Below, in pieces: positions 14,496 to 63,840 of a stretch of DNA of 64,000 nucleotides. A program made the translations under genes and the position numbers. The stretch comes from Gavia stellata (taxonomy: Eukaryota > Chordata > Aves > Gaviiformes > Gaviidae). The notes beneath the pieces are model-generated. The model ran no database searches. It was not told the origin of the DNA and was given only the letters and a program-made list of their open reading frames with translations. Every line of letters starts with the position of its first letter. Position 1 is the first letter of the stretch. The stretch covers positions 8,187,208 to 8,251,207 of the forward strand of contig NC_082619.1 in the NCBI RefSeq assembly GCF_030936135.1. The letters run 5' to 3'.

Positions 14496-15236
14496 AATGA
14501 GATGCTCGAGGAGCGAACATGGGATGCTCAAGGAGTGAACTCAGGATGCTCAGGGAGCGAACGTGGGATGCTCCAGGAATAAAATCGGGATGCTCAGGGA
14601 GTAAACACGGGATGCTTCAGGAATGAACTTGGGATGCTCAGGGAGCAAACATGGGATGCTCAAGGAATGAGCCTGGAATGCTCAGGGAGCAAACCTGGGA
14701 TATTCAGGGAGCAAACATGGGATACTCAAGGAATGAGCTTGGGATGCTCAAGGAGCGAATATGGGATGCTCCAGGAATTAACTTGGGATGCTCAAGAAGC
14801 AAACATGGGATACTCAAGGAGCAAACATGGGATGCTGGAGGAATGAACATGGGATGCTCAAGGAATGAACATGGGATGCTCAGGGAACAAACATGGGATG
14901 TTCCAGGAATGAACATGGGATGCTCAAGGAATGAACATGGGATGCTCAAGGAGCAAACATGGGATGCTCAAGGAATGAACTTGGGATGCTCAAGGAGCAA
15001 ACGTGGGATGCTCAAGGAATGAACTTGGGATGCTCAAGGAGCAAACATGGGATGCTCAAGGAATGAACTTGGGATGCTCAAGGAGCAAACATGGGATACT
15101 CAAGGAGCAAACATGGGATGCTGGAGGAATGAACATGGGATGCTCAAGGAATGAACATGGGATGCTCAGGGAACAAACATGGGATGCTCAAGGAATGAAC
15201 TTGGGATCCTCAGGGAGCAAACATGGGATGCTCGCT
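14496..15236. repeat. 22-bp minisatellite (GGGATGCTCAAGGA core)
   Basis: About 33 head-to-tail units start GGGATGCTCAAGGA and end alternately in ATGAAC-type or GCAAAC-type tails, giving a loose 44-bp dimer. Spacing is exactly 22 bp in the homogeneous part (GATGCT at 15007 and 15029). A block of several monomers at 14807 recurs at 15093. That 286-bp offset is exactly 13 monomers and marks a segmental duplication within the array. Open frames on both strands are products of the period. Confidence 0.93.
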
Positions 15237-16784
15237 GCTGCTGGCGCCAGAAGAAGCAGCCCTGTGTCAGGGGAACCCTAAAATATTGGGCACTTGGATG
15301 TTTTTGGTGATGGTGGGGCTTAAAATACGCCCCCCGTGTGCCTGCCCTCCTTTCTTCTCTCTTTTTCAAGACGAGCCGCCGAGCGCGGATGATCCCGTGG
15401 TCCTTTGATACCGAGACGATGGGGTTTCCATCCACCTCCCCTTGTCTCTCTCATTCCAATTCTCCAGCTTCTGAAAAATCCAAAATATTTTTTGCCCGGC
15501 ATCCCCAGCCGGCTGAAACAACCGGCGACAGCTTTATGGCTCCTTGTCTTCGCTCCCGTGGAATAGTAATGAGGGACGGGGAGGGGGGAATCCATCCCGT
15601 CGGCTGATTTACAAGGCAAGAAATTCTTGTAAATCATTGCCCCAACGTCTCCAAAGGATCGGGGGGACGCTCCGTGTTCCCGCTGGTTGTCCCGATGCAG
15701 TGATCCTTTTTTTTTTTGGGGGGGGGGACACAGGGATGCATCCCCACCGCCCGCTGCATCTCTCCGTTATTTTATCGATGGAGCCCAACCGCCTCTTCGG
15801 TTGCTTTCCCAACGGCCGACCCAAAGGAGGTCAACGTATTTTAGAGGCTGCTTTCAAGTACGAGGCACGAACGTCCGACCAAATATTTTCCGGATGTTTT
15901 TTTTGTTTGTTTGGTTTTTTTGTTTTGTTTTTTTGGGGATAAGCTAGAAGGAGGGATTTAGAACGGGGGTTTTGCAAGCGGTCGCTCACCCCGGGAAACT
16001 CAAGAGGGGAAATTGGGGGGGGTTGGGTTCCCAGCCTTAAATTTAAGCTCGTTTTTCCGCCTTTCCCGTCGCAACCCTGACCCTAGGGCCATCCCGTACG
16101 CCTCATTTACCGCCGCTGGCTCGTACCTCCTGCTGTAACTCTTCAGAGCCGATTTCAATCCATCCTGAAAGAATTCCGGGGCTGTTTCAAGTGATTCCCA
16201 CTCCCACCCAATATTCCTTAGGAGACGGGGAGAAATTCAGCGTTTCTTACCGAAGCCGGTTCTGATGGTATTTTTTATTGGGGAAGGGGATGGAAAATGG
16301 GGAAAAACCAAACTGTGGCCAGGCTGATCCGGAAAAATCCATCCCTGAGGCTTTTTCAATAAAAAGTGGGAAAATTTGGCTGCAGGACCCAGTGCTCCCA
16401 GTGCTCCCAGTGGAAGCGACACCAGGGAAACCTCATCTCCAGGTCATTAGGAGAAGGAAGGGGGGTGTTAATGTCTCATCCGGCCAAAATCTGGGGGGGG
16501 GGGGGGGGAGCCAGACTGCTCCCCCCTGACCCCGAATTAATAATAATTAATAGATGCTCCCAAAATGTGAGCGTTTCGCCTCGGATAATCCCGCAGGAAG
16601 GGCCTGGGGTGGGAAGCGTCCCAGGGAGGGATTTTTTTTGGGTGCCCTAAATTTCAGGGGGGTGAAAGGTTGTGCTGGGGGGGGTGGTGGTGGTGACGTT
16701 GATGGGGGGGGGTGACACCCAGGGGGGTGTCTGTGGTTGGAGTGGGGGGGGGTCAAATACCACCAGGGCTGGTGCTGAATGTGG
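15237..16784. other. Unique sequence with G and T homopolymer runs
   Basis: No gene is supported. There are notable homopolymers: T and G runs at about 15708-15728, a T-rich stretch at about 15896-15935, and G runs of 10 or more near 16493-16508. Local G-richness rises after 16660 and grades into the next array. Confidence 0.4.
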
Positions 16785-17442
16785 GTGGGGGGGCCAAATG
16801 TGTTTGGGGGGGCAAATATGGTTGGGGGGCAAATGTTTTTTTGGAGGGGAGACGCTGCTGGGGGGGCAAATATGTTTGGGGGGGCAAATGCGTTTGGGGG
16901 GGCAAATGTGGTTGGGGGGCAGATGCTGCTGGGGGTGCAAATATGGTTGGGGGGGCAAATGTTTTTTTGGAGGGGAGATGCTGCTTGGGGGGCAAATATG
17001 TTGGGGGGAAAATGCGTTTGGGGGGGCAAATGTGGTTGGGGGGGTAAATATGGTTGGGGGGTCAAATGTAGTTGGGGGGCAGATGCTGCTGGGGGTGCAA
17101 ATGTGTTTGGGGGGCAAATGTGGTTGGGGGAGCAAATATGGGGGGGCAAATATGGTTTGGGGGGTCAAATGTGGTTGGGGGGCAAATATGGTTGTGGGGG
17201 GCAAATGCGGTTGGGGGGCAAATGCTGTTGGGGGGGCAAATGTGTTTGGGGGGGCAAATGTGGTTGGGGGTAAATATGGTTGGGGGGTCAAATGTAGTTG
17301 GGGGGCAAATGTGGTTGGGGGAGCAAATGTGGGGGGGCAAATATGGGGGGGCAAATATGGTTTGGGGGGTCAAATGTGGTTGGGGGGGCAAATATGGTTG
17401 TGGGGGCAAATGTGGTTGGGGGGGCAAATGCAGCCGGGGGGG
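16785..17442. repeat. 18-bp G-rich array upstream of the CpG island
   Basis: About 35 units of the form GGGGGGCAAATGTGGTTG run on the plus strand, with variants CAAATATG, CAAATGCG and CAGATGCTGCTG. Each unit has a run of 5-7 G, so the plus strand holds dozens of closely spaced G-runs and should form G-quadruplexes readily. Translated frames (GGANVVGG-like on plus, PPQPHLPP-like on minus) are low-complexity by-products. Confidence 0.92.
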
Positions 17443-17449
17443 GTCTGAG

Positions 17450-18300
17450 CGATGCCCTGGGGGGCACCCAGGTGCTGGGGGCTCCGAAGGCTCCTGGGGG
17501 GGGGTCCGTTTGGGGGTGCCCGGGGGGGGGGGGGGCTCAGCACTGCCTGGGGAGGGGGCGGGACGGGAGGAGGGGGGGGGGGAGTGTGCGCGGGGAGTGG
17601 CGCCGGCCAGCAGGGGGCGCCCGGCGGCGTGGCGAGGGGGCGTGGCCTGAGGGGCGTGGCCTCGGGGGCGCGGCGGCGGCAGCAGCGGCGGCGGGGGGGG
17701 GCGTGGCTCGCCGCCGGGGGCGTGTCGGCGGATGGGGAGGCGTGGCGGCGGCGGCGGGGAGGCGTGTCCCGGCGGCGGGGCGGGGCGGGGCGGGGCGTGG
17801 CGGCGGCGGCGCGGCGGGGCCGGGCGGGCGGGCGGGCGGCGAGCGGCGGCCGCGCTGTCAGGCCGGTGTCGGTGTGATGAAGATTGGCGGGCAGGTAGGC
17901 TGTCACTCACCGGCGGGCCGCCGCGCGGGGGCGGGCGGAGCCGCGCCGAGCGCCGCGGACAAAGCGGCCCGGGCGGCGGGGCACGTGTGGCGGTGGCGGC
18001 GGTGGCGGGGACCCCCCCCCCCCCCCACTCCCTCCCTTTCCCCTCCCCGCTCCATCCCCTCCGGTGCGGGAAGTAACTTGCCGTTCCGCACCGCCTCCCC
18101 TCCCGGTGCGGGGCCGGGGGTAGCGCGGGCCTCGGTTGCAGCGTGTGTGTCGTGTCCCCGGTGTCCGGTTCCCCCCCCCCCCCCCGCCCCAGCGCCCCCC
18201 CCCCTCCGGGCTGACCTCCAGCCGGCTGCGGTTTGGCCCCGCCGTTGCGGTTCTCTGCGGTGACCCCCCCCCCCGGCTCCGGCCAGTTGCGATGATTCCC
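17450..18300. promoter_or_regulatory. CpG island, candidate PKNOX2 promoter and first exon
   Basis: This is a dense CpG island with many GGGGCGTGGC (KLF/Sp1-type) and GGGCGG boxes, no TATA box and no TEs. At 17894-17895 the plus strand reads GGGCAG-GTAGGC, a possible first-exon donor. The minus strand has a stronger donor, CCG-GTGAGTG, with GT at 17910-17909. Two CTGTCA words (17855-17860 and 17900-17905; TGACAG on the other strand, the core bound by MEIS/PREP factors) flank these sites. In human the next gene beyond TMEM218 on this side is PKNOX2, in head-to-head orientation, so this is the natural candidate for its start. No coding exon is visible and the strand of transcription is uncertain. 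Confidence 0.55.
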
Positions 18301-18329
18301 GGGGGGGGGGGGGGGATGCAGTGATCCCG

Positions 18330-19600
18330 GGGGGGGCTGCACCGCTCCCGGCGGTTTGCAGCCCGACACCCCCCCCCCAGCCGGTTGCAGCCCCCCCCGG
18401 GGGGGGGGTTGCAATCCCCCTCGGACTGGCTGCACCCCCCCGGCCGGTTGCAGACCCCCCCCCCCAACCCGCCCCGGCCGGTTGCAATGCCCTCGGACCG
18501 GCTGCAGACCCCTAAACCAGTTGCAACGCCCCCCGGGGGGGTTGCAGCCCCCCCCCCCCAGCCATATTGCAATGCCTTCGGACTTGCTGCAGACCCCCCA
18601 GCCGGTTGCAATACTCCCTAGGAGGTTGCAAACCCCTCAACCGCTTGCAATGCCCCCCCCCCCCCCCCACCCCGGGGCGGGTTGCAATCCCCCCAGCCGG
18701 TTGCAATACTCTCTGCAGACCCCCGACCAGTTGCAATGCCCCCCGGGGGGGGTTGCAACCTCCCCCCCAACCGGTTGCAATACGCCCCGGCTGTTTGCGA
18801 CCCCCACCCCCCCCCCCCCAACAGTTGCAATGCCCCCCCGGCTGTTTGCAACCCCCCCAAACAGTTGCAATGCCCCCCAGCTCTTTGCGACCCCCCTCCC
18901 CCAAACAATTGCAATGCCCCCCAGCTGTTTGCAGACCCCCCCAAATAGTTGCAATGCCTCATGGCTGTTTGCAACCCCCCCAAAACAGTTGCAATGCCCC
19001 CCCAGCTCTTTGCAACCCCCCCCCAACAGTTGCAATGCCCCCCCGACTGTTTGCAACCCCCCCCAAACAGTTGCAATGCCCCCCCCGGCTGTTTGCAGAC
19101 CCCCCAAACAGTTGCAATGCCCCCCCAACTGTTTGCAACCCCCCCCAAACAGTTGCAATGCCCCCCCCGGCTGTTTGCAGACCCCCCAAACAGTTGCAAT
19201 GCCCCCCCAACTGTTTGCAACCCCCCCAAAAACAGTTGCAATGCCCCATGGCTGTTTGCAACCCCCCCCCCAACAGTTGCAATGCCCCCCCAACTGTTTG
19301 CAACCCCCCCCCCAAACAGTTGCAATGCCCCATGGCTGTTTGCAACCCCCCCAAAACAGTTGCAATGCCCCCCCGGCTCTTTGCAAACCCCCCCAAACAG
19401 TTGCAATGCCCCCCCGACTGTTTGCAACCCCCCCAAAAACAGTTGCAATGCCTCATGGCTGTTTGCAACCCCCCCCCAACAGTTGCAATGCCCCCGGGGG
19501 GGCTTGTAAACCCCCCAACCGGTTGCAATGCCCCCCCGGCTCTTTGCAACCCCCCCAACCAGTTGCAATGTCCCCCCCTGGGGGGGACTGCAGCCCCCAC
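18330..19600. repeat. 41-bp C-rich array downstream of the CpG island
   Basis: About 28 units, each with two halves: GTTGCAATGCCCCCCC and GGCTGTTTGCAACCCCCC followed by AAACA. The word GTTGCAATG recurs at 19029, 19070, 19111, 19152 and 19193, exactly 41 bp apart; elsewhere C-run length changes the period by a few bases. The minus strand is G-run rich. Each unit carries TTGCAAT, TTTGCAA and CAGTTG, the last being both an E-box and a Myb-type core. Very long open frames here (up to 492 codons at 18567-20045) have no recognisable domain and are by-products. Confidence 0.92.
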
Positions 19601-20870: not shown

Positions 20871-21817
20871 GACGGGATCAACGTGGTTGAGGGGATTGAC
20901 GGGGTCGAGGGGATCAATGTGGTCGAGGGGATCAATGGGGTTGAGGGGATCGATGGGGTTGAGGGGATCAACGTGGTTGAGGGGATCAACGTGGTTGAGG
21001 GGATTAATGTGGTCGAGGGGATCAATGTGGTCGAGGGGATCAATGGGGTTGAGGGGATCGATGGGGTTGAGGGGATCAACGTGGTTGAGGGGATTAACGT
21101 GGTCGAGGGGATCGACGGGGTCGAGGGGTTCGATGGGCTTTAGAGGATCAATGGGCTTTAGGGGATCGATGGGGTTGAGGGGATCAACGTGGTCAAGGGG
21201 ATCAATGGGGTTGAGGGGTTCGATAGGGTTGAGGGGATAGATGGGGTTGAGGGGATAAATGGGGTTGAGGGGATAGATGGGGTCGAGGGGATCAACATGG
21301 TCGAGGGGATCAACATGGTTGAGGGATCGACGTGGTCGAGGGGATCAACGGGGTTGAGGGGATCAATGGGGTTGAGGGGTTCGATGGGCTTGAGGGGATC
21401 AATGGGGTTGAGGGGTTCGATGGGCTTGAGGGGATCAATGGGGTTGAGGGGATCGATGGGGTTGAGGGGATCAACGTGGTCAAGGGGATCAACATCATCG
21501 AGGGGATCGACGGGGTCGAGGGGATCGATGGGGTGGAGGGGATCAACGTGGTCAAGGGGATTGACGTGGTCGAGGGGATTGACGGGGTTGAGGGGATCGA
21601 TGGGGTTGAGGGGATCGATGGCGTTGAGGGGATAGATGGGATCCAGGGGATCGACGTGGTCGAGGGGATCAACGGGGTCAAGGGGATCGATGGAGTCGAG
21701 TGGATCAGTTGGGTTGAGGGGATCGACGGGGTCGAGGGGATCAGTTGGGTCGAGGGGATCGACGGGGTCGAGGGGATTGATGGGGTCAAGGGGATCGACG
21801 GGGTCGAGGGGATCGGG
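20871..21817. repeat. 18-bp array (GGTTGAGGGGATCAATGG)
   Basis: About 53 tandem units, with GGGGAT at 20945 and 20963 showing the 18-bp step. Because 18 is divisible by 3, frames on both strands remain open for long distances. The plus strand reads VEGIDG/VEGINV hexapeptides and the minus strand LDPVDP or PSTPSI repeats (236 codons at 21158-21868). No start context, splice site or domain supports expression. The main variation is GATCAA/GATCGA/GATTGA and GGGG/CGTGG. Confidence 0.93.
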
Positions 21818-22235: not shown

Positions 22236-22795
22236 AGGTAAAGGAAATTGCCTTTTTTTTTAGGAAATCACCTTTTTTTTTTACAGAAATCCCCTTTTTT
22301 TTAAAGGAAATCGCCTTTTTTTTTAAGGAAATCGCCTTTTTTTTAAGGAAATCGCCTTTTTTTTAAGGAAATTGCCTTTTTTTAAGGAAATGGCCTATTT
22401 TTTTTTAGGAAATCTTTTTTTTTTAAGGAAATCACCTTTTTTTTAAGGAAGTTCCTTTTTTTTTACAGAAATGTCCTTTTTCGCTAAGGAAATCACCTCT
22501 TTTTTAAGGAAATCACCTTTTTCTTAAGGAAATCACCTTTTTTTTAAGGAAAATCTCCTTTTTCTCTAAGGAAATCACCTTTTTTTTTTAAGGAAATCAC
22601 CTTTTTTTTCAGGAAATCACCTTTTTTTTAAGGGAAATCTCCTTTTTCTTAAGGAAATCTCCTTTTTTCTAAGGAAATATCTTTTTTCTTAAGAAAATCT
22701 CCTTTTTTCCCAAGGGAAATAGCCTATTTTTTTAAGGAAATCTCCTTTTTTCACAGAAATTCTTTTTTTTTTTTAAGGAAATCTCCTTTTCTTAA
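22236..22795. repeat. Phased T-tract array, 20-21 bp
   Basis: About 26 units of AAGGAAATCACC or AAGGAAATCGCC followed by 6-10 T. The T-tracts recur every 20-21 bp, close to two turns of B-DNA, so their bends would add up. Variants include CTCC for CACC and occasional ACAGAAAT. Confidence 0.9.
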
Positions 22796-24355: not shown

Positions 24356-25450
24356 GTTTTAGTGAATATTTTATTGAAATTTTTAATTACATTTTCATTT
24401 AATTTTTTAAATTTCATTTTTATTTACTTTTATTTGAATTTCTACTTAATTTTTCATATAATTTTATTTAATTTTTATTTTTATGTAATGTTTTATTTAT
24501 TTTTGTTAATGTTTATTTAAAATTTTAGTTAATTTTTAATTTTTTAGTTAATTTTTATTTAATTTTTCTAGTTAATGGAAATTTTTAATATTTACTTTTC
24601 CAATTAATTTTTATTTAAATTTTTAGTTAATTTTACTTTAATTTTTGATTAATTTTCTTATTTAAATTTAAAGTTAATTTTTAATTTTAATTTTTAATTT
24701 AATTTTTATTTTAAATTTTATTTTTAAATTTTTTAATTTTCATTTTTTATTGCCCCTTTTATTTTTAATTTCATTTTCTATTTTTCATTTTATTTTTTAT
24801 TTTTGTCTTCTTTCATTTCATTTTTTATTTTCCTAGACTCATAGAATCGTTTAGGTTGGAAAAGACCTTTAAGATCATCAGCTCCAACTGCCAAGTCCAC
24901 CACTAAACCATGTCCCTAAGCACCACGTCTACACGTTTATTTTTTATTAATTCTTTATTTTTTATTTTATTTTTAATTTTATTTTTATTTTCTTTTTTCT
25001 TTATATTTTTTAATTTTTCTTTTTTATTTCATTTTTTCTTTATCTTTTTAATTTAATTTTTTATTTAATTTTTCTTTTTATTATTTAATTTTTTATTTAA
25101 TTTCTTATTTAATTTTATAATTAATTATTTTTATTTTTATTATTTATTTTTATTATTTATTTTTATTACATTTTTCCTTTTCCTTTTTAATGTAATTTTT
25201 TATTTTTATTTAATCTTTTATTTTATTTTTTAATTAAGTTTTTAATTTTTAGTTCATTTTTTGTTTCATTTTTAAATTTTTTCTTTTTCTTTTTAATTTA
25301 TTTTTAAATTTTAGATTTATTTTTTATTTCCTTTTTCCTTTTTCTTTTTCATTTCATTTTGCATTTAATTTTTTCTTTTCCTTCCCTTTTTTCTTTTTCT
25401 TTTTTATTTCATTCATTATTTTTATTGTCTTCCATTTAATTTTTCATTCT
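24356..25450. repeat. T-rich TTTAATTTTTA low-complexity tract
   Basis: About 1.1 kb of TTTAATTTTTATTTAA-type sequence with strong T over A bias on the plus strand. It is interrupted only by a CR1-like fragment (24834-24936). There is no regular unit length and no gene. Confidence 0.88.
24834..24936 (-). mobile_element. CR1 LINE 3' fragment
   Basis: The plus strand reads CATAGAATCGTTTAGGTTGG, then AAAAGACCTTTAAGATCATC and GCCAAGTCCACCACTAAACC. This matches the familiar reverse complement of the 3' end of avian CR1 elements, so the element is on the minus strand. Only about 100 bp remain, and no reverse transcriptase sequence is present. It sits inside a T-rich tract. Confidence 0.85.
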
Positions 25451-25790
25451 CAATATCCTTTCCTTTTATTTAGACTGAGTTGCACTTCCCCACCCACACT
25501 TGAACCGTCTTCGAGCATCGGGTTCCTGACCCATCCCGCCTCCATCAGCTGTAATCCAGGCAGGAAAACCCCAACCATCCAGTAGCCCCACCAAAAGACC
25601 GTAAAAATTCCAACTAGAGCAGCGGCGCCGCGGACGCTCCCCAACCCCCAGATTATTTTGAGAAGGCGTTGCAAAACCGATGAAAATTCTAACCAAACCC
25701 CACATTTTTTTTCGCTCGGTTCTCCCTTTCCCCGCCCGTGACGGCTGCCTTTCTCCTCTCAATACATCCCGTAAAGCCCATTAAAAATAA
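25451..25790. other. Unique spacer
   Basis: About 340 bp of ordinary sequence between two AT-rich tracts. The short minus-strand open frames here have no recognisable homology. Confidence 0.4.
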
Positions 25791-26250
25791 TAACGAAATA
25801 ATTAGTATAATTGTAATTATTTATTATATTAAATTTTTAGATTTATAGATTTATACACTTATTTACGTAGTTATAACATATTATATATTAATGTACTTAT
25901 TTATATATTTAAATATTATTTAGATTTAATTAGATATATATTTATTTAAGTAGTTATATTTATATATTTATAATACATAATATATATTTATATATTTAAG
26001 TATTATTTAAATTTAATCATATATTTATTATATATTATTATATATTTAATTATATATTTAAACATATATTTTATATAATCATAATGTGTTATATATTTAT
26101 ACACATATATTTATAATTATAATTATAGAAATAGAATAAATATAAATATAATGAATATAAATATAATAAATATAAATTTAATAAATATAAATATAACCCA
26201 TAAATAGAAAAAATAATTATAATAAATAAATAATTAAAAAAATTTTCCCA
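25791..26250. repeat. AT-rich TATATTTA low-complexity tract
   Basis: Irregular TATATATTTA, AATATAAATA and similar words over about 460 bp, with both strands equally AT-rich. No gene. Confidence 0.85.
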
Positions 26251-26477: not shown

Positions 26478-27135
26478 TTGTTTCCTTTTTGCCCCAATTT
26501 TCTTCCATTTTTTTCCTTTTTTCCCCCTTTTTTTTTCTTTTTTCTTTTTCACTTTTTCCTTTTTCCCCCTTTTTTCTTTTCCCCTTTTTTCTTTTTTCCC
26601 CCTTTTTTCTTTTTCCTTTTTTCTGTTTTCCTTTTTTCTTTTTTCTTTTCCCATTTTTCCCCTTTTTTCCTTTTTCCTTTTCCTTTTTTCCTTTCTTTCC
26701 CTTCTTTTCCTTTTTTCCTCTTTTCACCCGTTTTTCCCTTTTCCCTTTTTTCTTTTTTCCCTTTTTTCTTTCTTTTCAGTTTTTCCTCTTTTTCCTTTTT
26801 TCCCCTTTTCCCCTTTTTTTCCGTTTTTGCTTTTTCCTTTCTTTTCCTTCTTTCCTTTTTTCCCTTTTTCATTTTTTCTCCCCTTTTTTCCCCTTTTTCC
26901 CCTTTTTTGGCTTTTTTTGGGCCTTCTTTCTCCTTTTTTTTTCCTTTTTCTCCTTTTTTCCCTTTCCTTTCTGGCTTTTTTCTTTTTGCCTTTTTTCCCT
27001 TCTTTTTTCTTTTCTTTTCCTTTTTCCTTTTTTTTCTTTTTTCTTTTTCCCTTTTATTTTCCTTCTTTCTTCTTTTGGCTTTTGCTTTTCTTTCCTTTTT
27101 CCCTTTTTCCCTTTTTTTCCCCTTTTTTGCCTTCT
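26478..27135. repeat. Polypyrimidine tract (TTTTTCC)n
   Basis: About 650 bp in which the plus strand is almost purely C and T, in TTTTTTCCC-type units with very few purines. Mirror-symmetric pyrimidine stretches of this length are classic triplex (H-DNA) formers. The Phe/Ser/Leu-rich open frames (for example 26313-27263) are translations of this tract. Confidence 0.92.
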
Positions 27136-27710
27136 TTTCGGCCGCCCGCTTCAGGCCAAGACGCCGCCGTGCCCCCCAAATGCTCCCCCCTGTCCCTGCG
27201 GGGACTTCCCGATGCCAAAATACTGCCACCGATCAAGCAGCGAGTCAAAACTTTCCCAAATAATTCCAAAAAAATCAGAATATTTCATTCTGGTGGTTTC
27301 ACTTCCCGTTATCCGCTCAGCGGCGTCTCATTCCCGGGATTATTTGGCGGAGGCAGGACTGGTCTTTCACAGATCTAGTGCTTCTAGGTACGTCGGAAGG
27401 CACTTTATAGCTTTATAAAACCCTTAAAATGCTTTTTTAAACACTATTTGAAGCTTCCCCGGCAAGTTTTAGGACAGCAATTACAAGCTCCCTTATCCCC
27501 CACCAAATTCCCACTGCGGCGGTGGATGTAAACCCCGTTAGATGTTTTTAATTTCATTTAAAAGGGAATTTATTGTTGCAAACTGCTAATTTCTCCATCC
27601 GAATGCCGCTGCCTGTTGCTGGTGGCGATGCCGGGGACGGCCGGGATGCAGTTTGGTGATTTTGGTGCCTATCCCAGAAAAAAAGACTTTTACCTGCTTG
27701 AGTTTTCTGA
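27136..27710. other. Unique spacer
   Basis: About 570 bp of mixed sequence between two pyrimidine-rich arrays. No exon or element is recognised. Confidence 0.4.
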
Positions 27711-38930: not shown

Positions 38931-38934
38931 ATTA

Positions 38935-43512: not shown

Positions 43513-43513
43513 C

Positions 43514-43539: not shown

Positions 43540-43544
<5 letters not shown>

Positions 43545-49534: not shown

Positions 49535-49715
49535 TATTTGATAATATTAAATGATATTAAATGATATTAAATAATATTTATATATAATTATTTATTTAAG
49601 ATTATGTAATACTATTTAATATCATTTAACATCAAATATAATTTAATATAATTTAATATCATTTAATATTATTAGATATCATTTAATATTATTTATTATT
49701 ATTTAATAACACAGT
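49535..49715. repeat. ATGATATTAAAT AT-rich tract
   Basis: About 180 bp of AATGATATTAAATAATATTT and its near complement ATTTAATATCATTTAA. The two halves could pair as an imperfect inverted repeat. Confidence 0.85.
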
Positions 49716-51000: not shown

Positions 51001-51745
51001 CCTCTTTAAAGGACTTTGTTGGGATGGAAACTTCTGCTTGATTGGCTTTTTTGGGTGCATAACCCCTGTTTTAGGGGCTGTTTTGGGTGCAAAACCCCTG
51101 CTGAGAGGCCTTTTTTTGCTGCAAACCCTTTTTCCAAGGACTTTTTTTGGTGCAAAGACTTGTTTAAAGGCCTTTTTTGGGTGCAAACCCTTTTTTGAAG
51201 GACTTTTTTTGGTGCCAAACCCCTGTTTAAAGTGCTTTTTTTTAAGTGCAAACCACTGTTTGAAGGGCTTTTTTGGTACAAACTCTTTTTTGAAGAGCTT
51301 TTTTTCTGCAACGCCCCTATTTAAATTGCTTTTTTTTTGGTGCAAACCCCCTTTTTGAAGGACTTTTTTGCTGCAAACTCCTTTTTGAAGGACTTTTTTT
51401 GGTGCAAACCCCTGTTTGAAAGGCTTTTTTTGGTGCAAACCCCTGTTTGAAGGACTTTTTTTTGGTGCGAACCCCTGTTTGAAGGGCTTTTTTTTGGTGC
51501 AAACCCTTGTACGGGCTTTTTTTTGTGCAAACCCTTGTTTAAAGTGCTTTTTTTTGGTGCAAACCCTTTTTTCAAGGACTTTCTGGAGTGCAAACCCCTG
51601 CTTGAAGGGGTTTTGTGGGTGCAAACCCTATTTAAAGTCCTTTTTTTTTTTGGCAAGCCCGTGCTTGAAGGACCTTTTTTACTGCAAACTCCTGCCTGAA
51701 TGGCTTTTTTTGGTGGAAAACTCTGATTTAAAGGACTTTTTTTGC
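51001..51745. repeat. 31-bp array (GGTGCAAACCCCTGTTTGAA + T-tract)
   Basis: About 24 units of GGTGCAAACCCCTGTTTGAA followed by AGGCT or GGACT and 6-10 T, with a 31-bp step in the regular part. Minus-strand frames are Lys/Phe-rich (KKPFKQGFAPKK-like); plus frames are Phe/Cys-rich. They are judged by-products. Confidence 0.92.
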
Positions 51746-52914
51746 TGCAAACCCCCCCGGAGGAGCTGCTAAAGCAGCGTTGGGGTGGGATGAGGATGTG
51801 GACGGAGCGTGGGTGCTTGCATGGGACACAGGGCTTATTTTGGGGGAAAACCCTGGGGTTTTAGGAGCAAGGAGGGAACCCGCCGTCGGCCGCCTGTGTG
51901 GGGTTTTGGATGGGATTTAACCCGTTTTCCTTCCTTCGCCAAGCAAAAATCCCCCCCAAATCCCCATCTGTGATGCTTTTTTATTCTTAAGGATAATTAA
52001 AATAATACAGGTTTTGCTAAAATAATTGCATTTTGCATGCAAAAAAAAACCTTCTGGTGCGGAGGTATTCATGTTACCCAACGATGCTTGTCCACGCCGT
52101 CCCGCGAGCAAAACTGTCTCGTTTTTAAGGTTTTTTTCAGCTTGAATTTCAGCCCCGAGCAGGTGATGGAGGAGCAAACCCACCTGGGGGTGGGTAGCGG
52201 AGGAGCATCACCTCCACCCCCCTGGGGCAGCATCCCCCTTTCCAACCATTTTTCCCTTCTGGTAGCGTCGTACAGGTGGGAAAAGTGGGTTTTTCTTGCT
52301 GGTTTTGGGGGAAAAATGAAGTTTGCTCCACTTTTCGCCGCCGCCTCCGTGCCGAGCGCTCGCCACCCCGCTGTCTGTTTTTCCTTGCCGAGGTTCAGTT
52401 CTAATTATGTTGATTTTCTCCAGCCCACCCCCCTCCTGGCAAGCTTATTAGGGGGAATATTTTTATTTATTATCATTTCGCCCAACTCCCGCCAGCATTT
52501 CCAATTACTCTCGCCGCTTCCTTGTAATTGTCTTTCCGTAATGGCTGCGAAACAATTGCGCTAAATGAGGTGGCTCTGGCAAGATGAGGGTTTCACTTCA
52601 TTAAAGGCTAATGGATTCCCAGCTCCAGCTCTGTGGGCAAGAAAAAAAAAAGGGGGGAAAAAAAGAAAATAAAGAGATTTAAACAGCTTCTTCTATTTTA
52701 TCGGGATAACTTTCTCCGGTATAGAGGAGGTTGGGTGTGGTTTTGGCGTTGGGCGGCCGTTAACGACTGTTATATTTGCAGCGGCGTCGAGGTGCGGGCG
52801 GGTTTGCCCCGTATCCGGGCATGAACATTTTTTGGGGGATTTTTTAAAATACTTTTTCTCTCCATTCCTGCTGGTTTGCGAAAGCTGCTTTCACGCCCTT
52901 TTTTGGGATATCTA
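51746..52914. other. Unique sequence with a candidate regulatory element
   Basis: No gene is recognised over about 1.2 kb. The most structured part is 52340-52625, listed separately. A-runs lie at about 52640-52670. Confidence 0.4.
52340..52625. promoter_or_regulatory. Candidate conserved noncoding element
   Basis: A dense cluster of short motifs in complex sequence: TTCTAATTATG, CTTATTAGGG, CCAATTACTC, TTGTAATTGTC, AACAATTGCGC, CATTAAAGGCTAATGG. This is the strongest enhancer-like texture in the window by eye. It sits in the presumed first intron of PKNOX2, a TALE homeobox gene, but conservation is untested. Confidence 0.4.
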
Positions 52915-53665
52915 TAGAGCGAGATACTGTACTTATTGCTATAAATATGTATTTATACATTATAGAAATATTTGCTATATAGCAGCATATTAACATTGCT
53001 ATATAATATAACATGCAATGATATATTAATGTAATACATGCATATATTTATAAATAATTATATAGTTAGTTCAATAAAATAATATACAATAAATATATAA
53101 TACCATAAAGAATTATGTGTTATAGAAACAATGATATATTGCTTGATATAAGCAATATCCCGATATCTAATGCTTGATGTATAGCGATATAATATATGGC
53201 TAATAATGATTATATTGCTATATGTTATACAGCAATGTATTATAGATTAACAATAGATTATAGATTATTTAGGATTATATAGATTATATAATACAGATTA
53301 GCGATATATTATAGATTATTTAGGATTATATGGATTATATAATACAGATTAGCGATATATTACAGATTATTTAGGATTATATAGATTATATAATATAGAT
53401 TAGTGATATAGATTATTTAGGATTATATAGATTATATAATATAGATTAGTGATATATTACAGATTATTTAGGATTATATAGATTATATAATACAGATTAG
53501 CGATATAGATTATTTAGGTTTACATAGATTATATAATATAGATTAGCGATATATTATAGATTATTTAGGATTATATAGATTATATAATACAGATTAGCAA
53601 TATATTACAGATTATTTAGGATTATATGGATTATATAATATAGATTAGCAATATATTATCGAAAA
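52915..53665. repeat. AT-rich tract with a 51-bp unit
   Basis: The left part is irregular TATATA sequence. From about 53260 it becomes regular: AGATTATTTAGGATTATATA recurs near 53262, 53313 and 53364 (51-bp steps), then at shorter steps of about 43-47 bp. About eight copies in all. Confidence 0.9.
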
Positions 53666-54124: not shown

Positions 54125-55240
54125 AGAAGGTGGGATGGATATATTGGATATATCGGCTATATCACATTGTATCCGTCCATTGGATCTATTATATTGGATA
54201 TACATTGGGTATATTGGCTATATTAGATTATATCCATGCATTGGATCTATTATGTTGGATATGTATATTGGATATTATGTGTGTATATATATATATGAGA
54301 CAGATATTGGATATATTATGTTATATCCATCCATTGGATATATTATATGTATCCATCAGATATATTATATCCATATAATATTACATCCATACTATTATAT
54401 CCGTATAATATATCCATTGACTATATATATTATAATATATCCAATATATCAATCCAATATATATTATACATGTATTTTTTTTACATACCTTCTCTCTCTT
54501 TATCTTCTCCCTCCCATATATTCTCTCTCTCTATATATATAGGATGGTTATATATAAGTCTTTATCCACATTATCCAATATTATATCCATGTAATATAGA
54601 TAATAATCCAATAATAGATATTGGATGGATTTAATTGGATAATGTGGATGAAGACATATATATCTACTATACATATAATATTTGTATAATAAACCAATAA
54701 TATATATATTGGATGGATATAAGTGGATAATGTGGATGACTATGTCTACTATATACAACATATGTATAATAATCCAATAATAGATATATTGGATGGCTGT
54801 AAGTGGATAATGTGGATGAAGATGTGTACATCTACAATGTATAATAATCCAGTAATATTTATATTGGATGGATATAAGTGGATAATGTGGATGAAGCCAT
54901 ATATATCTACTATATATATAAAATATTTGTATAATAATCCAGTAATATATATATTGGATGGATATAAGTGGATAATGTGGATTAATATATCTGCTATATA
55001 TAATATATGTATAATAATCCAATAATACAGATATTGGATGGCGATAATTGGATAATGTGGATGAAGCCATATATATCTACTTTATATATAAAATATATGT
55101 ATAATAATCCAATAATATATAGATATTGGATGGATATAAGTGGATAATGTGGATGAAGCCATATATATCTAATATGTATATAAAATATATGTATAATAAT
55201 CCAATAATGTATATGTTGGATGGATACAGGTAGATAATGT
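54125..55240. repeat. AT-rich tract with a 75-95-bp higher-order unit
   Basis: The left part is TTGGATATATTGG-type sequence. From about 54600 to 55230 a composite unit repeats about eight times. It contains ATAATCCAATAATATATATA, then TTGGATGGATATAAGTGG and ATAATGTGGATGAAG, with TATATCTACTATATATA in between. Unit length varies from about 75 to 95 bp. Confidence 0.9.
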
Positions 55241-58204
55241 GGTCGCAGACATACATTTTCTGTATGGATAAAAAGTGGACAGGTGGGTATGGCTGTTGCA
55301 GGGGGTTGCAGATTTCTGGGGGTCAGGGCCGGGTGGGAAGGACATTGTGGGGGCTCCCACCAGTCTGAACGGCGCCGGGATGCTGCTGTTCGCGTATGCA
55401 TCGCGCCGGAGAGCTTCAGCTCTTCTGGGCGTTAAACCGCTGGAATATGGCTTTACCCACCAAACCGGGGGAGCGAACCTTGCAATAGCTCAGGAAAATC
55501 CCTTTTTTTTTTCATTTAAAATGACTCGGAAAGCCGCTTGGCCTGCACGGCATCCTTCGTCAACCATTGCATCCCGCGTCCCATGGTTTCCTTTAGCACA
55601 CATCAGGTGTCTCCTCCCAAAACCTGCCTGTGGCCCATTAACAATAAAAGATTAAAATAATCATTTTTTGCCATAGGAAAAGGTTTCTCGTTGTAAACAT
55701 ATTTCTCTTTCCGTGTAATAATGGAAATATTGAACTGTGTGCATCCTTCAGGGAGCCGTGAGAAATTCCCCCATCCTATCCCCAGCCCGGGGCCACTCAC
55801 CTTTATTCCTTTGAAGAGATAAAAGGAGATAAAATGCATTAAAAAACCCCTGCAAAATTCATGTTTTTAAGAAATTAACTGCCCTTCAAGCCTTACCTTT
55901 CAGCAAGGTGCACGCAGTGGGATTTTTCCTATAAAAATGGCATTTTTTAGGCACACAAATGCGCATAGGTGCCGAACAGCTTTGCAGAATTGGGGTGACT
56001 CATGAATTTGGGAGGGGGGACGACCCTTAGATTTGCTTTAACTGGCTGGAGCTACAATTTTAGGTTTAGAAAGGAGAAAAACCTCTAAAATCGGGATGGC
56101 AGGTTTTCGGGCAGTGGCAGTGGTGGCAGTTTGCGCCGGAGGATGCCGAAGCATCCGAGACGTGGTGCAAATTCAGTCCCCCCAGCTGCAAAAAGCCGTC
56201 CCTTAAATAGATTTTGCAGGAGTTTGTGCACCCAGGACGGGGAAAAGCAACAACCAGCAACCGCCTGCGATGACTTGCAACCGTTCGCGTCCTCGCCTTG
56301 TGCCAAAAGTGTGTTTTAGCGTCTGGTTTGGGGCAAAATCCTGCATTTTTCGTGAAGGCGGCCGCCAGCTGCTGCTGCAGAGCTCCATTAACCCGGCACT
56401 AGGACGACACCAGACCTCCACTTCGTTAAGTTGATGGCTCTTGCTAATTTTCGCCGTGTCCTTTCGGGGCTCCTCGCCATCCGGCAACCGGCCGGGACGG
56501 ATGCACGCTGTTACCTTCGTCCTTATTCTGCAAGCATCCTCATCCTCATCCTATTTAGCATCCATGCTTGGGGGTTGCATCCCTCCAAGCTTTCAGCCCT
56601 CCTTATTTCCAAGGAATTTAAGAGCATCCCTCTTTTTCCACGTGCTTTTCCTTCCCTGCGACCACGAACACCAGCTCGACCAGCAGAGTAATTCGGGATA
56701 TTATTTGGGATTATTTCAGCGCAGAGCAAAAAGCAGCCCTGACAGTGCAAGGATGGTGCAACCCATGAGCTGAAATACTTAATTATTGCAGACGTGACCT
56801 TGCTGGGATGAGCGACCAGACGGCCAGGGATGCTCGCCTCCAAAAAAACCCAGGGCAGGCTCGACGCAGGGTCTCCTGACGAAGCCAGCGCTCCCCGACC
56901 TTAATTAGGCACCCCTCATTAAGCACAGAGCTCATATAACCGTGCGTCCAAACCTCCCTGGCTCCGGATCATGATGTTACGGCACTCAAATGCATGGAAA
57001 AAAAAAGCCCAGTGTGGTTGCAGAGCATCGCATCTCCTCATACTGGAGCCACGCCTTTATTAAAATAATTATAAAACCATTTTGCAATTCATATTTTTTT
57101 AGGAATGTTGAACGGGGGCTTTAGTGACACCCGGGGCTTAATTTATCTTAGTCCCGGGGCAGAAAAATGTAAAGCGTCTTCGTTAGTGTCAAAGCTCAGC
57201 AGAGGAATTATTTTCCATCCTGTTTGGAAACTGGGTGTAATTTGGGCGTATGGTCGGGGACTTTTTTTTCCACCGGCTGTTGCATCACTATGAGTTTTGC
57301 AGGGAAAACACCATTTTTTGCAGCTTTCTCTGTCCTGGAGTTCCTTCTGGGGGTTCAATCTAGTTCAGGTGTCCTGAGGGAGTGATGAAAAAACAGATGT
57401 TTCTGGGAAAAATCACCTTTTTAAAAAAAATCTAAATGGAAAAAAAGCAATTAATTGAATTTCAAAGCATGAGGATAATGGTTTTTTGAGGGTGGGTATA
57501 AAGGACATTCCCAGACTGAATTACTCTGCACTTGGGACAGCTGATCTACCAACGCAAACAGGTGTCAAAAAACTCCCCAAACCCCAAAAAACCCCAAATT
57601 TTGAGGTTTTCTTATGAGCTCGGGAACTAAATACAGATTTTTTTGGGGGATTTGGTTGATGTGGGGTTGCTGGAAACCTTTGCTAAAAGCCGAATATCCC
57701 TCGAAAAGCAGCAGCGCTGTTGAACAGCCAAGCCCTGCGCTTTGTGCAGAAATTATTCGCAGCCTGTGTTTTGCGAGAAATTTGGGGTAAAAAGCACCTT
57801 TTGACCGAAATATCGCCGATTTTGTGCGCTGGGGGCTGTGCGACGAGTTAAAACGGCATAGAAAAAACCACGCCGTGGTAAGGAAGAGCCCGTGGGGTTT
57901 TGAGGAGCTGAACCAACTCCCAGGCATGCCCGTACCAGGCGGCGGGATGCAGACAGCCTGAGGCTGCCCTTAGCTCCGGTGCCAGGAGCGGGACGGACCT
58001 TTTGGCATCTAAACTGTGCCAGAAAGCGTCTCTGTTTTTCCCCAGCTAGTTCAATCGGCTTCATAAAAAAAAAAAAACCTGAACCATCGCTGCCTCGCCA
58101 GAGGGGCTGCGGAGTGGCGCTGAGCCTCGCCAGGCTGCTGGCAGCCTGGGGAGCTGGAAAAATGAGCATTTTTTTAGAAGTTGGATCAAAATGGAGAGTT
58201 GCTG
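55241..58204. other. Longest unique island of the right half
   Basis: About 3 kb with no tandem array. I looked for exons with splice sites and known peptides and recognise none. A patch at 56890-57000 (TTAATTAGGCACCCC, CATTAAGCACAGAGC) has enhancer-like texture. T- and A-runs are present at 55501-55511 and 58065-58079. Confidence 0.4.
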
Positions 58205-59300
58205 AGCTTTGCTTTTGGCCAGTGTTTTTGCTTTGGTCCTAGCCAGCATCTTCGGTTTGCTTTTAGCTGGTGGCCTTGGTTTGAGCCTAGCCAGAATCCC
58301 TGGTTTGAGTTCAGCTAGTATCCGTGGTTCGGTCCTAGCCAGCATCCCTGCATTGTTCCTAGCCAGCATCCTTGGCATCTTCAGTTTTATTTTAACCAGC
58401 ACCCTCAGTTGAATCCGAGCAAGCATCGTTGGCTTGATTCTAGCTTACATCAATCCTAGCCGGCATTTTCAGCTTGCTGCTGGGTAGCGTCCTTGGTGCG
58501 ACCTTAGCCAGCATCCTTGCTTTGACCCTCATGAGCATCCTCAGTTCATATTTAGCTAGCAGCCTTGGTTTGATAAGCGCCAGCACCCGTGGCTGAATTC
58601 TAGCATCCTTGAGTGACTCCTACCCAGCATCCTTGCTTTGGTCCTAGCCAGCATCCCTCGTCTGATTTTAGCTGATGTCCTTGGTTCAGTCCTACAGAGC
58701 ATATTTTCTCCAGCCTTCACCAGCAGCTTCAGTTTGATTTTATCTACCATCCTTGGTTCAATCCTGGCCAGCATCCTTGGCTTGATCCTGGCCAGCGTCC
58801 TTGACTTGATCCTGACCAGTATTATTGGTTCGATCCTGACCAGCATCCTTGGTTCAGTCCTGACCAGCATCCTTGGTTTCATCCTGACCAGCATCCTTGG
58901 TTCAGTCCTGACCAGCATCCTTGGTTTGATCCTGACCAGCATCCTTGGCTTGATCCTGGCCAACATCCTTCCATTCCTCCTGACCAGCATCCTTGGCTTG
59001 ATCCTGGCCAACATCCTTCCATTCCTCCTGACCAGCATCTTTGGTTTGATCGTGGCCAGCATCCTTGTTTGATCCTGACCAGCATCCGTGGTTCAGTCCT
59101 GACCAGCATCCTTGACTTGATCCTGGCCAGTGTCCTTGGTTCGATCCTGACCAGCATCCTTGGCTTGATCCTGGCCAGCATCTTTGCTTCGATCCTGACC
59201 AACCTCCTTGGTTTGATCCTGGCCAGTCCCCATGCTTCGAGCTTAAACCTCGCTTTGCTCCTAGCCAACATCCCCACCAGCATCCTCGCTTTCAATTTAA
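58205..59300. repeat. 24-bp array (GACCAGCATCCTTGGTTTGA)
   Basis: About 45 units. The regular core has GACCAG at 58814, 58838, 58862, 58886 and 58910, exactly 24 bp apart; the edges are more diverged. As 24 is divisible by 3, a plus frame (58638-59072) reads SILGLILT-type octapeptides, all hydrophobic, and the minus frame reads basic RMLVRIKP-type octapeptides. No domain or start context supports translation. Confidence 0.93.
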
Positions 59301-60705: not shown

Positions 60706-61395
60706 GAGGACTCCTGTGCACATGCATCTGCAGGCGCGTGTTTGCCCGTGCCTGTTTGCACGTGCATTTGCACATCTGCAGGTGTGCATGTTTGCACGTG
60801 CATTTGCCTGTTCGCATGTGTGCTTGCATGCTCGCACGTGCATGCTTGCATGTGCACGCTAGCATGTGCACGCTAGGATGTGCATTTGCATGCTTGCACG
60901 TGCACTTGCATGTTTGTGTGTGCGTGCGCATGCTTGCACTTGCAGGCCTGCACGCACGTTTGCATGTTTGCATGTGCATGTTTGCATTTGCATGTCCATG
61001 TGCATATGCATGTTTGCATGTGTGGTTGCATGTTTGCCTGTGCGTGCGCATGTTTGCATTTGCATGTGCATGCTTGCATGTGCATGTTTGCACATGCACG
61101 TGCATGATTGCACATCCACGCGCATGACTGAATGTGCACGGGCATGTTTGCATGTGCGTTTGCCTGTTTGCACACCCGTTTGCAAGTCTGCATGTGAATG
61201 TTTAAGCTTGCATGTGTGTTTGCGTGTTTGCACAAGCATGTTTGCACGTGCATTTGCAAGCTTGCACGTGCGTTTGCACGTTTGCAGCTGCATGTCTGCA
61301 CGTGCACGCGCATTTGCAAGCTTGCACGTGCGTTTGCTCGTTTGCACCTGCGCACACACATATTTGCATACATGCAAGCGCATACATATGCACAA
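60706..61395. repeat. 10-bp GCATGTTTGCACGTGCATTT array
   Basis: About 68 ten-base words such as TTTGCATGTG, TTTGCACGTG and CTTGCACGTG. Much of the sequence alternates pyrimidine and purine. CACGTG E-boxes recur, for example at 60759-60764, 60795-60800, 60835-60840 and 60897-60902. Frames on both strands are open and rich in Cys, His and Ala or in Lys, Thr and His; they are by-products of the period. Confidence 0.92.
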
Positions 61396-62310
61396 AAGTC
61401 CTTGTAGCAAAATAGCCGCGGGTTTTGGATGCGAAGAGCCCTGCCCGAGCGGGGCGAGACAGGGATCGAGCAGCACGTGGGGCTATAGCCCCCCATACAC
61501 CGCTCTCCTGATTTACACCCCCCCGTAACTTACTTTTCTTCCCATCAGCGCTAACCCATGTCCTCCAGGAAGTTTAATTTCTTCTCGCTAGTAATCACCA
61601 TTAAATAGAAATTGTCTTTTTCTGTGTAAACACGTCATTAGCGAAGCTGGTTTCTGCAGGGTCCAGATTTCATTTTTATTAAAATGAAACATTTTTCGGC
61701 TCCTTACTGTGTCCGGAGATGAAGAGGATAATTTGAACCCGTTGGGTTGGCCACAGATAATTGCGCCGGCGTTTGATTGGGGCGATTAGGGAAATCTCCT
61801 CTTTTCATGCAGAGGAATTTACATTTTCCCCCCTTACTTCTCCGGAGCGGAGTCCTGCTTTCCTACGCAGCCAGTTTTAACGAGCGTTATCAATCCTAAG
61901 GAATATATTTTCAGCTTCACTGTATCGCCTTGGTTTTGAGTAGGTAAGGGCTGGAAAACTGGGTCCAGGTGGAAAGTCCGGGTGGGAAGAGGTGCTGAAT
62001 TGCAGCCCCTTCCCACGGGATGATGCTCGATCAGGGGAACCTCCTTTTTCTCCCGCCCTCGGGAGCGTCTGAATGATTTCGGAGCACCAATAGCACCCCT
62101 GGAATGATGCAATGGGTTTTTTTTTGGGGGGGAAACCAGCTGGTTTTGGTGCCAGGGGTTGCAACCGGCCACCGGCATCGGCCTTTGCCGCCGTGCGAGG
62201 GCCCTCTCCCCCCAAACTGCACGGCTCCCGGCGTCTTGCTGCCGCCTCGCTGTCAAAAGACCTTTTCCCTCCAAATACCCAAGAAAAATAACCAAGCTCA
62301 CACATATATG
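61396..62310. other. Unique sequence with candidate regulatory element
   Basis: No gene is recognised. The left-centre part (61540-61930) has enhancer-like texture and is listed separately. Confidence 0.4.
61540..61930. promoter_or_regulatory. Candidate conserved noncoding element
   Basis: Complex, AT-leaning sequence with GCTAGTAATCACCATTAAAT, CACGTCATTAGCG, TTTTTATTAAAATG, CAGATAATTGCG and ACGAGCGTTATCAATCC. No repeat and no good open frame. Possible enhancer in the presumed PKNOX2 intron. Confidence 0.38.
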
Positions 62311-63175
62311 TATATAAAAAATATATAGTATTTTCTGTATGAGTCCCATTATATTAGATATATATCCCATATAGATGAGATTAATATATATTATTTATTG
62401 CGCCATATATGTCATATCATAGATCATCATATCGTATCATGTCGTATCATATCGTATCATGTCGTATCATATGGTATCATCTCATATCATATCATATCTT
62501 GTCATATCATACCATACCATGCCATGCCATGCCATATATATAATATGTAATGAAATTTAATGTAATATAATGTAAAATAATGTAATATAATGTAATATAA
62601 CATAACATAACATAACATAACATAACATAACATAACATAACATAATATAATATGCAATACAAGACAATATAATACAATATAATTTATGGGAATAATAGAT
62701 AATATATACTGGACTAATATATAATTTATTCTATATTATTCCCATCATATCATAAATATTACCATATATGGGAATAATAGAGAATAACTGATTAAGTGTT
62801 CCTATATGTTATAATATATCATAACATACCACACCATATTTATAACACATGGGGATAATATATAATATATTATTGGAATAATATTGGAATAATAATTATA
62901 TTATATTATATTATATTATATTATGTTATGTTATGTTATGTTATGTTATGTTATGTTACGTTACGTTACGTTACGTTACGTTACTTACATTACATTACAT
63001 TACATTACGTTATTATATATTATTCCCATATAATATACAACATATATAACACATATAACATATATAACACATATAACACATGTAACACATTTAACATATA
63101 TAACATGTATAACATATATAACACATATAACGTATAATGTCTATAACATATATATAACATGTAACACAGAACATA
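62311..63175. repeat. Second compound pentanucleotide and AT-rich tract
   Basis: From left to right: TATATATCCCATA sequence, (TCATA/TCGTA)n, (CCATG)n, (TAATG)n, (ACATA)n, irregular AATATATA sequence, (TATTA)n, (TGTTA)n, (CGTTA)n, (CATTA)n, then ACATATATAAC words about 10-12 bp apart. The organisation is like 45.8-46.6 kb. Confidence 0.92.
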
Positions 63176-63655
63176 TAATATATAGTGGAATGAGGTGACC
63201 TTGTGGCCTCTCCCCTCTCTCTCTCTCGGCCATACCCAGACCTTGAATTTTCTGGCCGCGTTACTAAAAAGGTGGCAAATGAATTCCGAATATACCGTAT
63301 AGCCTATATGATGCCTTCGCAACGCTCGCTTTGGCTTCGAACGCAGAGTTGCCCCTTCCCATCCTACATGGAAAAGCGTCTTTTCAGACGCAGGGGAGCA
63401 CCAGATCCCCCCAAATCCGCCCCTCAGCAGCCCCAAATCCCCATCTGCTGCCGGGGTGAGGGCCCCGGGTGGATTTAAGCTATTTATGGAAAATCCCAGC
63501 CCAGAGGAGCGTGGCCGGAGACTGGCCGCTCCCTGCTCCGATGCTGTTGGATCAAGCCCATGGGAGGACAGCGAGGGATTCGGGGCGATGGGAAGGCGGC
63601 TTGGCCAAGCAGATTGCAACCGGGTTTGCCCCAAACTGCTCCCATCAGCTTGCTT
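63176..63655. other. Unique spacer
   Basis: Mixed sequence with a short CT-rich run at about 63209-63228. No gene is recognised. Confidence 0.4.
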
Positions 63656-63840
63656 TTTCCTCGCTGTTTTTGCTTTTCCTTACCTTTTTTTTGCTTTTCC
63701 TTACCTTTTTTTTGCTTTTCCTTGCCTTTTTTGCTTTTCCTTGCCTTTTTTTTTTTGCTTTTCCTTGCCTGTTTTTGCTTTTCCTTGCCTTTTTTTGCTT
63801 TCTTCTCTTCTGCTCTTCCTTGGTTTTTTTTTCCGCAAAG
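63656..63840. repeat. TTTTGCTTTTCCTTGCC pyrimidine-rich array
   Basis: About seven or eight units of TTTTGCTTTTCCTTGCC with variable T-runs, period about 18-24 bp. The plus frame is Phe/Cys-rich; the minus frame is Lys-rich. Confidence 0.88.

Follow-up and report, generated by a model that had tools for sequence, protein, structure and literature searches.

The 64,000-nucleotide stretch of the Gavia stellata genome analyzed here (the window; NCBI RefSeq assembly GCF_030936135.1, contig NC_082619.1, positions 8,187,208 to 8,251,207 of the forward strand) contained a dense series of tandem arrays between positions 14,496 and 63,840 (the interval under study). We lean towards reading this series as minisatellite-type arrays that arose independently of one another and cluster around the promoter and in the first intron or introns of what is probably PKNOX2, on a bird microchromosome that is not a dot chromosome. 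Tandem Repeats Finder (TRF; settings 2 5 7 80 10 50), run over the whole window, returned 240 rows that merged into 54 intervals, 52 of which were located within 14,496-63,840. Arrays covered 44.2% of the interval, 36.1% of the window, and 8.9% of positions 1-14,495. Markov controls built from local 2-kb blocks across 14,001-64,000 (five sets of order 2 and five sets of order 3) reached a coverage of 0.5-1.1% and 1.5-2.9%, respectively, compared with 43.6% for the real sequence of this range, and their top TRF score was 118, compared with 2,856 in the real sequence. The array density is real and far beyond chance. After joining by eye, the interval held 29 larger arrays that comprised 24.2 kb, or 49% of its length. 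The borders of this hand list are a little wider than those of TRF, and short runs were omitted from it, such as those at 15,895, 16,388, 17,626-17,854, 19,920, and 35,623, as well as 36,299, 43,514, 47,693, 49,850, and 54,000.

The original prediction for this DNA, that more than 20 tandem arrays are packed into about 50 kb, was borne out by these 29 hand-joined arrays and their TRF coverage. Its estimate that arrays fill about 40% of the window was too high for the window and comes near only to the value for the interval. A TRF array exists for every one of the 13 unit lengths it named, namely 10 bp (49.5 kb), 14-15 bp (34.4 kb), 18 bp (16.8 kb), 18 bp (20.9 kb), 20 bp (22.2 kb), 20 bp (30.3 kb), 21 bp (50.1 kb), 22 bp (14.5 kb), 24 bp (58.7 kb), 29 bp (39.7 kb), 31 bp (51.0 kb), 41 bp (18.8 kb), and 51 bp (53.2 kb). 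The AT-rich, polypurine, and pentamer tracts were also present, together with polypyrimidine tracts. Units of 18-24 bp occurred in 10 of the 25 interval arrays for which a unit length is given. The arrays of the hand list are as follows:

14497..15233, 22-bp array, 33 units
16778..17442, 18-bp G-rich array
18180..19600, 20/41-bp C-rich array, degenerate units to about 18,800 (by eye), then 41-bp units (TRF 18,812-19,578)
20874..21815, 18-bp array, about 52 units
22241..22790, 20-bp array
24357..25460, AT-rich array broken by a CR1-like fragment (about 24,834-24,935)
25805..26240, AT-rich array, GC 7%
26484..27139, polypyrimidine array
27717..28103, 19-bp pyrimidine-rich array
28808..29745, A-rich array with the word GGTGGGT interspersed
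30285..33470, 20-bp array, 158 units
34355..35196, 15-bp array, TTAGCAAAGACCC common to the 29-bp array
38115..38935, polypurine array
39590..41284, 29-bp array, 58 units, copied multi-unit tracts (TRF from 39,684)
41860..42660, AT-rich array, TTGGGGAATAT to the left and right of a CR1-like fragment (about 42,299-42,391)
44912..45450, 73-bp array
45840..46520, pentamer arrays, several motifs in succession
46910..47545, 9-bp AT-rich array (TRF 46,989-47,230)
48180..49340, 12-bp array, longer period 89 bp
49540..49708, 10-bp AT-rich array
50110..50690, 21-bp array
50981..51755, 31-bp array
52960..53660, 51/148-bp AT-rich array (TRF 53,241-53,659)
54130..54470, 61-bp and 27-bp AT-rich arrays
54590..55242, 80/245-bp AT-rich array
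58210..59290, 24-bp array
60720..61390, 20-bp array, in part alternating purine-pyrimidine
62290..63185, pentamer and 9-bp arrays, including the ladder 62,895-63,008
63650..63830, 21-bp pyrimidine-rich array

The units of these arrays were mostly unrelated to one another, as had been predicted. Nineteen consensus units (those of 18 interval arrays and of a 52-bp array to the left of the interval) were compared in 171 pairs on both strands, with about 1,000 shuffles each; simple and AT-rich arrays lacking a clear unit were excluded. Under dinucleotide shuffles, two of the 171 pairs reached p ≤ 0.01 (1.7 expected) and five reached p ≤ 0.05 (8.6 expected), and the comparison did not trace all arrays to a single ancestral unit. 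The second-best pair, formed by the 22-bp array (14.5 kb) and the 20-bp array (30.3 kb), had GGGATGCTC in common. The hexamer GATGCT occurred 211 times in the window versus 26 times in shuffles, with at least four copies in four arrays (14.5, 30.3, 39.6, and 58.2 kb). In the array-free DNA across the window, too, GATGCT/AGCATC ranked first in over-representation among four-letter hexamers (73 versus 19.3 expected), and it is therefore a local word that does not prove descent. A general sharing of words between arrays and the islands between them was considered and rejected (rank correlation 0.04, p 0.29, 792 words). The 20 most over-represented island words occurred in a mean of 1.10 arrays each, compared with 0.35 for words below rank 150, and thus a link between island words and arrays may exist.

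Dispersed repeats were few. When the array-masked DNA was compared with itself (E ≤ 0.01, low-complexity filter on), the islands yielded one dispersed pair, 24,839-24,906 with 42,311-42,389, at 76% identity, which we take to be CR1 3' ends. This single pair agrees with the predicted 200 bp or so of recognizable transposon, and old degraded elements are possible. AT-rich array DNA borders each of the two CR1-like fragments on both sides. Next to the second one, TTGGGGAATAT was found in exact copy three times on the left and twice on the right; its sites with at most one mismatch all fell within 41,911-42,664, ten in all, a total that was also reached by 3 of 100 shuffles. The AT-rich arrays around the CR1-like fragments are either older than the insertions or have grown on both sides later.

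Unit divergence from the consensus was measured in 11 arrays: ten lie within the interval, and the eleventh is the 52-bp array outside it, represented by its core. An alignment-based table was used for the 24-bp array. Divergence amounted to 5% for the 15-bp array, 6% for the 41-bp array, 10% for both the 18-bp array at 16.8 kb and the 20-bp array at 22.2 kb, 11% for the 29-bp array, 12-13% for the 18-bp array at 20.9 kb, 13% for the 20-bp array at 30.3 kb and for the 31-bp and 22-bp arrays, and 19% for the 24-bp array. The lowest value of the 11 (0.5%) came from the core selected within the 52-bp array (3157-3601, eight units), and the rest of that array was more diverged. The spread of 5-19% is as expected from staggered births or staggered turnover, and favors them. 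In the 24-bp array (58232-59226), divergence by thirds was 26, 21, and 12%, highest at the left end, as if growth had run from left to right. By eye, identity was flat with unit distance in 8 of the 11 arrays and fell mildly in three (the 20-bp array at 22.2 kb, the 31-bp array, and the 52-bp core).

Copied tracts were tested in 11 arrays with a clean unit, chosen from the 29, against 60 column permutations that kept the variants of each position and broke their linkage. The best copied tract exceeded all 60 controls in seven of them: the 41-bp array, the 18-bp array at 20.9 kb, the 20-bp arrays at 22.2 and 30.3 kb, and the 29-, 31-, and 24-bp arrays. The clearest case was a 131-bp exact copy at an offset of 203 in the 20-bp array at 30.3 kb, the units of which are 13% diverged. 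Copied tracts beyond the controls therefore indicate that groups of units were copied within at least some arrays. A common step of 205 bp, with nucleosome length in mind, was prompted by the longest exact copies at offsets of 203-206 in four arrays and was dropped, as an all-lag scan kept 203 and 206 as the best values in two arrays, while the best lags in others were 44, 52, 82, 160, 234, and 441.

The birth of arrays from ordinary sequence was only weakly visible. Recurrent 9-mers of the arrays, when pooled, were 1.6 times denser within 1.5 kb of their own array than farther away. Low-copy tandems (about two to four copies) were compared with 15 order-3 Markov controls. In the right-hand islands, 26, 19, and 8 were found at minimum scores of 30, 36, and 44, versus 15.0, 8.8, and 3.3 in the controls and above all 15 each time, although a few of them (e.g., 54,000-54,069) also appear among the small arrays listed elsewhere, and an excess of this kind over a Markov model could occur in any real genome. 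The left islands had 6, 4, and 0, versus 2.7, 1.5, and 0.5, which is within the control range. The pentamer ladder at 62,895-63,008 consists of four successive blocks, each one base from the preceding block, and the six-block cluster was equaled by 0.8% of letter shuffles. The ladder fits a mutate-and-expand process. The pentamer cluster at 46 kb did not stand out by letter shuffles (20%) or by order permutations (41%). Motifs that can form non-B DNA (quadruplex, polypurine, alternating, AT-rich, and palindromic) covered 30% of the right-hand array DNA, 9% of the right-hand islands, and 4% of the left islands; as a shared cause they were rejected, being absent from 7 of 35 listed arrays. When the three TMEM218 exon regions, together with a candidate first exon, were searched by blastn for copies in the arrays, the matches away from their own positions were only A-rich, within the CpG island, or short. 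The predicted local process that makes arrays from ordinary sequence gains from the independent units, the few dispersed repeats, and the divergence of 5-19%, whereas the seeds of arrays mostly escaped detection.

The genes and other features that place the arrays are listed below:

1027..4341, minus strand, TMEM218, coding exons 4341-4232, 4153-4051, and 1161-1027 (GT/AG introns, Pfam TMEM218_N, and protein matches)
2786..4013, 52-bp array, 1,228 of the 2,889 bp of TMEM218 intron 2, outside the interval 14,496-63,840
17501..18000, plus strand (presumed), CpG island (GC 0.85, CpG observed/expected ratio 1.08 by composition), candidate PKNOX2 promoter (identity by synteny)

Judged from its sequence, the gene at the left of the window is TMEM218. 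Its three exons on the minus strand, with GT/AG borders, encode a predicted protein of 115 residues that matched Pfam TMEM218_N (E 7.2e-20). Among the matches listed (best 120 of 131), TMEM218 of Calonectris borealis was the closest (94%), followed by those of penguin, ibis, stork, and cormorant, an order that, for one short protein, points to a bird close to the core waterbirds. The PKNOX2 start presumably lies at the CpG island at 17.5-18.0 kb, with the gene running rightwards, as we assume from the human gene order. A search of the window with a partial human PKNOX2 protein found no coding exon of PKNOX2 (best E 0.2), which is expected if the window covers 5' introns only and is no proof of it. 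In chicken, TMEM218 and PKNOX2 are both placed in chr24:0.0-1.0 Mb by a table of PMC6678660, and a table of another chicken paper gives PKNOX2 in 24:0.1-1.9. Because the two genes share the first megabase of chicken chromosome 24, the arrays are probably situated at the 5' end of PKNOX2, both inside this end and around it. The location of chicken TMEM218 on chromosome 24 also fits the microchromosome setting that had been proposed, as do the longest contigs behind the 25 best TMEM218 matches, which measure 7.3-9.7 Mb in 19 cases, 0.04-2.1 Mb in four, and 12-13 Mb in two. TMEM218 intron 2 houses the 52-bp array, which is therefore intronic, and the arrays of the interval would be intronic by synteny.

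Further observations concern the surroundings of these features. The 52-bp array terminates about 40 bp from the splice donor of TMEM218 exon 2 (by eye). Across the CpG island (16778-19600), the G-rich strand flips: the upstream array is G-rich on the plus strand (skew +0.74), and the downstream array is C-rich (-0.35). The CpG observed/expected ratio is likewise high (0.85-1.17) at 20,001-22,000, which includes an 18-bp array, and another CpG-island-like stretch (39001-39500; GC 0.63, ratio 0.84) lies directly before the 29-bp array. Candidate conserved non-coding elements were noted by eye in the islands at 39240-39400, 52490-52620, and 61560-61800. Searches of the window against Rfam at gathering scores and for tRNAs gave no match.

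A mechanism that could account for the cluster begins with short local duplications in weakly constrained intronic DNA, which may be produced by polymerase slippage, template switching, or break repair. These duplications would expand into arrays, and existing arrays would be remodeled by the copying of groups of units within them, possibly through gene conversion, unequal exchange, or template switching. Because birth would be staggered and existing arrays reworked, arrays of differing apparent age would neighbor one another, and the islands would be sequence that has so far not been overrun by arrays.

Several results weigh against this reading. Plain letter shuffles gave four unit pairs with p ≤ 0.01 and 17 of the 171 with p ≤ 0.05 (8.6 expected), an excess that therefore indicates some sharing of short words among units. 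The top pair, the 15-bp array at 34.4 kb and the 29-bp array at 39.6 kb, shared the 13-bp TTAGCAAAGACCC, with 14 exact sites in the former and 4 in the latter (none in 100 shuffles), and these two arrays are probably related. The near/far ratio of unit words exceeded 2 in just 7 of the 29 arrays; four of these seven are AT-rich, and several ratios rest on a handful of matches. The order of the blocks in the pentamer ladder was not significant, as 7.9% of order permutations of the six-block cluster did as well. Four of the 11 arrays (22-bp, 18-bp at 16.8 kb, 15-bp, and 21-bp) did not exceed the 60 column-permuted controls, and a 103-bp exact copy at an offset of 286 in the 22-bp array was not beyond its control. 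TRF found two arrays in the left 14.5 kb (the 52-bp array and a GGTCCC run) and, at score 50, none in the 9.9 kb from 4.6 to 14.5 kb beside the dense zone; the chance of such a gap was P 0.001 when 35 arrays were placed at random, but P = 0.07 once neighbors less than 600 bp apart were merged into 14 clusters, and a sharp boundary of the zone is therefore not proven. In addition, the identity of the right-hand DNA as PKNOX2 draws on synteny, the human gene order, and the CpG island.

The arrays could alternatively be old, static minisatellites, each formed in one ancient burst and decaying since, with no creation now. The mostly flat identity with distance, the divergence of 5-19%, the CR1-like fragments contained in two arrays, and the 4 of 11 arrays without a copied tract above control are consistent with this; however, it is made unlikely by the multi-unit copied tracts in 7 of 11 arrays, the 131-bp exact copy, the nearly identical core of the 52-bp array (outside the interval), and the perfect pentamer blocks. 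If a single satellite or transposon-derived unit had spread and then diverged past easy recognition, this would explain the 13-bp core common to the arrays at 34.4 and 39.6 kb, the four arrays with at least four copies of GATGCT, and the excess of sharing under plain shuffles. Nevertheless, the number of related pairs under dinucleotide shuffles was close to expectation (2 of 171 with p ≤ 0.01 versus 1.7), GATGCT also led in array-free DNA, and the islands held a single dispersed pair; spread of one unit is very unlikely.

Another explanation is that nothing local is involved, and that all microchromosome introns of this bird are alike, with the window typical of the genome. Bird microchromosomes and chromosome ends recombine strongly, which would support such an explanation. 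In human, variable number tandem repeats (VNTRs) with GC above 60% and units longer than 15 bp show a 21-fold enrichment within 5 Mb of chromosome-arm ends (PMC7608644). On the other hand, positions 1-14,495 of the same window were only 8.9% covered, with two arrays and 9.9 kb free of arrays at TRF score 50, and the values published for chicken off the dot chromosomes are far lower: with a minimum score of 25, less strict than the one used here, TRF repeats make up 3.73% of the assembled chicken chromosomes (PMC4992247), and introns outside the dot chromosomes have a median simple-repeat coverage near zero (PMC12954441). A window typical of the genome is an improbable explanation. An assembly artefact, in which repeats were collapsed or inflated through long-read errors, is extremely unlikely. 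Reading through regions of this kind is difficult, as described for GC-rich avian genes (PMC6792250), but the units are 5-19% off their consensus with variants common to several units, which random read errors would not be expected to produce.

The process in the G. stellata interval resembles sequence stuttering in chicken introns and apparently depends neither on a dot chromosome nor on GC-rich DNA. As described in PMC12954441, stuttering introns contain one or several locally expanded imperfect repeats, whose lengths vary between and within individuals and which sometimes include exon edges, and related species carry different repeats in orthologous introns. The causes discussed by its authors are high GC, quadruplexes, and meiotic conversion (PMC12954441). 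Of 236 introns with exon stuttering, 190 were on dot chromosomes, 10 on other microchromosomes, and 36 on macrochromosomes (PMC12954441); the chicken dot chromosomes named in that source are 16, 29-32, and 34-38, and chromosome 24 is not among them. The present arrays share with stuttering the locally expanded, imperfect tandem blocks that span tens of bases or longer and are mostly visible to TRF, and the few interspersed repeats (PMC12954441). In contrast, the dot chromosomes are the main site of stuttering (PMC12954441), whereas the gene here maps to the non-dot chicken chromosome 24, and its own chromosome class probably differs as well. The GC content was 45.3% in the interval, 46.6% in the window, and 51.6% in the islands, and 18 of the 29 arrays were below 40%, unlike the association with high GC reported for stuttering (PMC12954441). 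No exon copies were found here for the TMEM218 exon regions and the candidate first exon, although exon inclusion is only occasional in that paper (PMC12954441). Stuttering includes extensive length variation within a species (PMC12954441); the window is one haplotype, and membership of the stuttering class is therefore not claimed.

Two further systems are partly comparable. GC-rich "hidden" avian genes such as leptin and TNF-alpha have introns that consist largely of short tandem repeats, some of them quadruplex-capable (PMC6792250); however, these genes are very GC-rich (69.6% in TNF-alpha) and short (1,680 bp), whereas the present region has 45% GC, 49 kb, and many AT-rich arrays. The grouping of many minisatellites towards chromosome ends is similar to the subtelomeric enrichment of human VNTRs (PMC7608644), but the enriched human class exceeds 60% GC, and closeness to a chromosome end is judged here via chicken synteny alone. 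No earlier report of arrays at this locus was found by title or abstract start in the open-licence literature among the matches listed.

Sequence stuttering has been proposed as a new genetic instability bound to dot chromosomes and high GC (PMC12954441). We tentatively suggest that array birth and remodeling on the scale of the dot chromosomes might also hit ordinary microchromosomes, in AT- and GC-rich introns alike, and that quadruplexes or GC-biased conversion might not be the sole cause, with a feature of the locus, such as a long intron that is transcribed and lies close to a chromosome end, responsible instead. A dense case outside the dot chromosomes and outside high GC would help to separate the causes, namely GC and quadruplexes, recombination at chromosome ends, and transcription of long introns. 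Since the unique islands between the arrays are readable, orthologues could be aligned across birds and each array could be dated.

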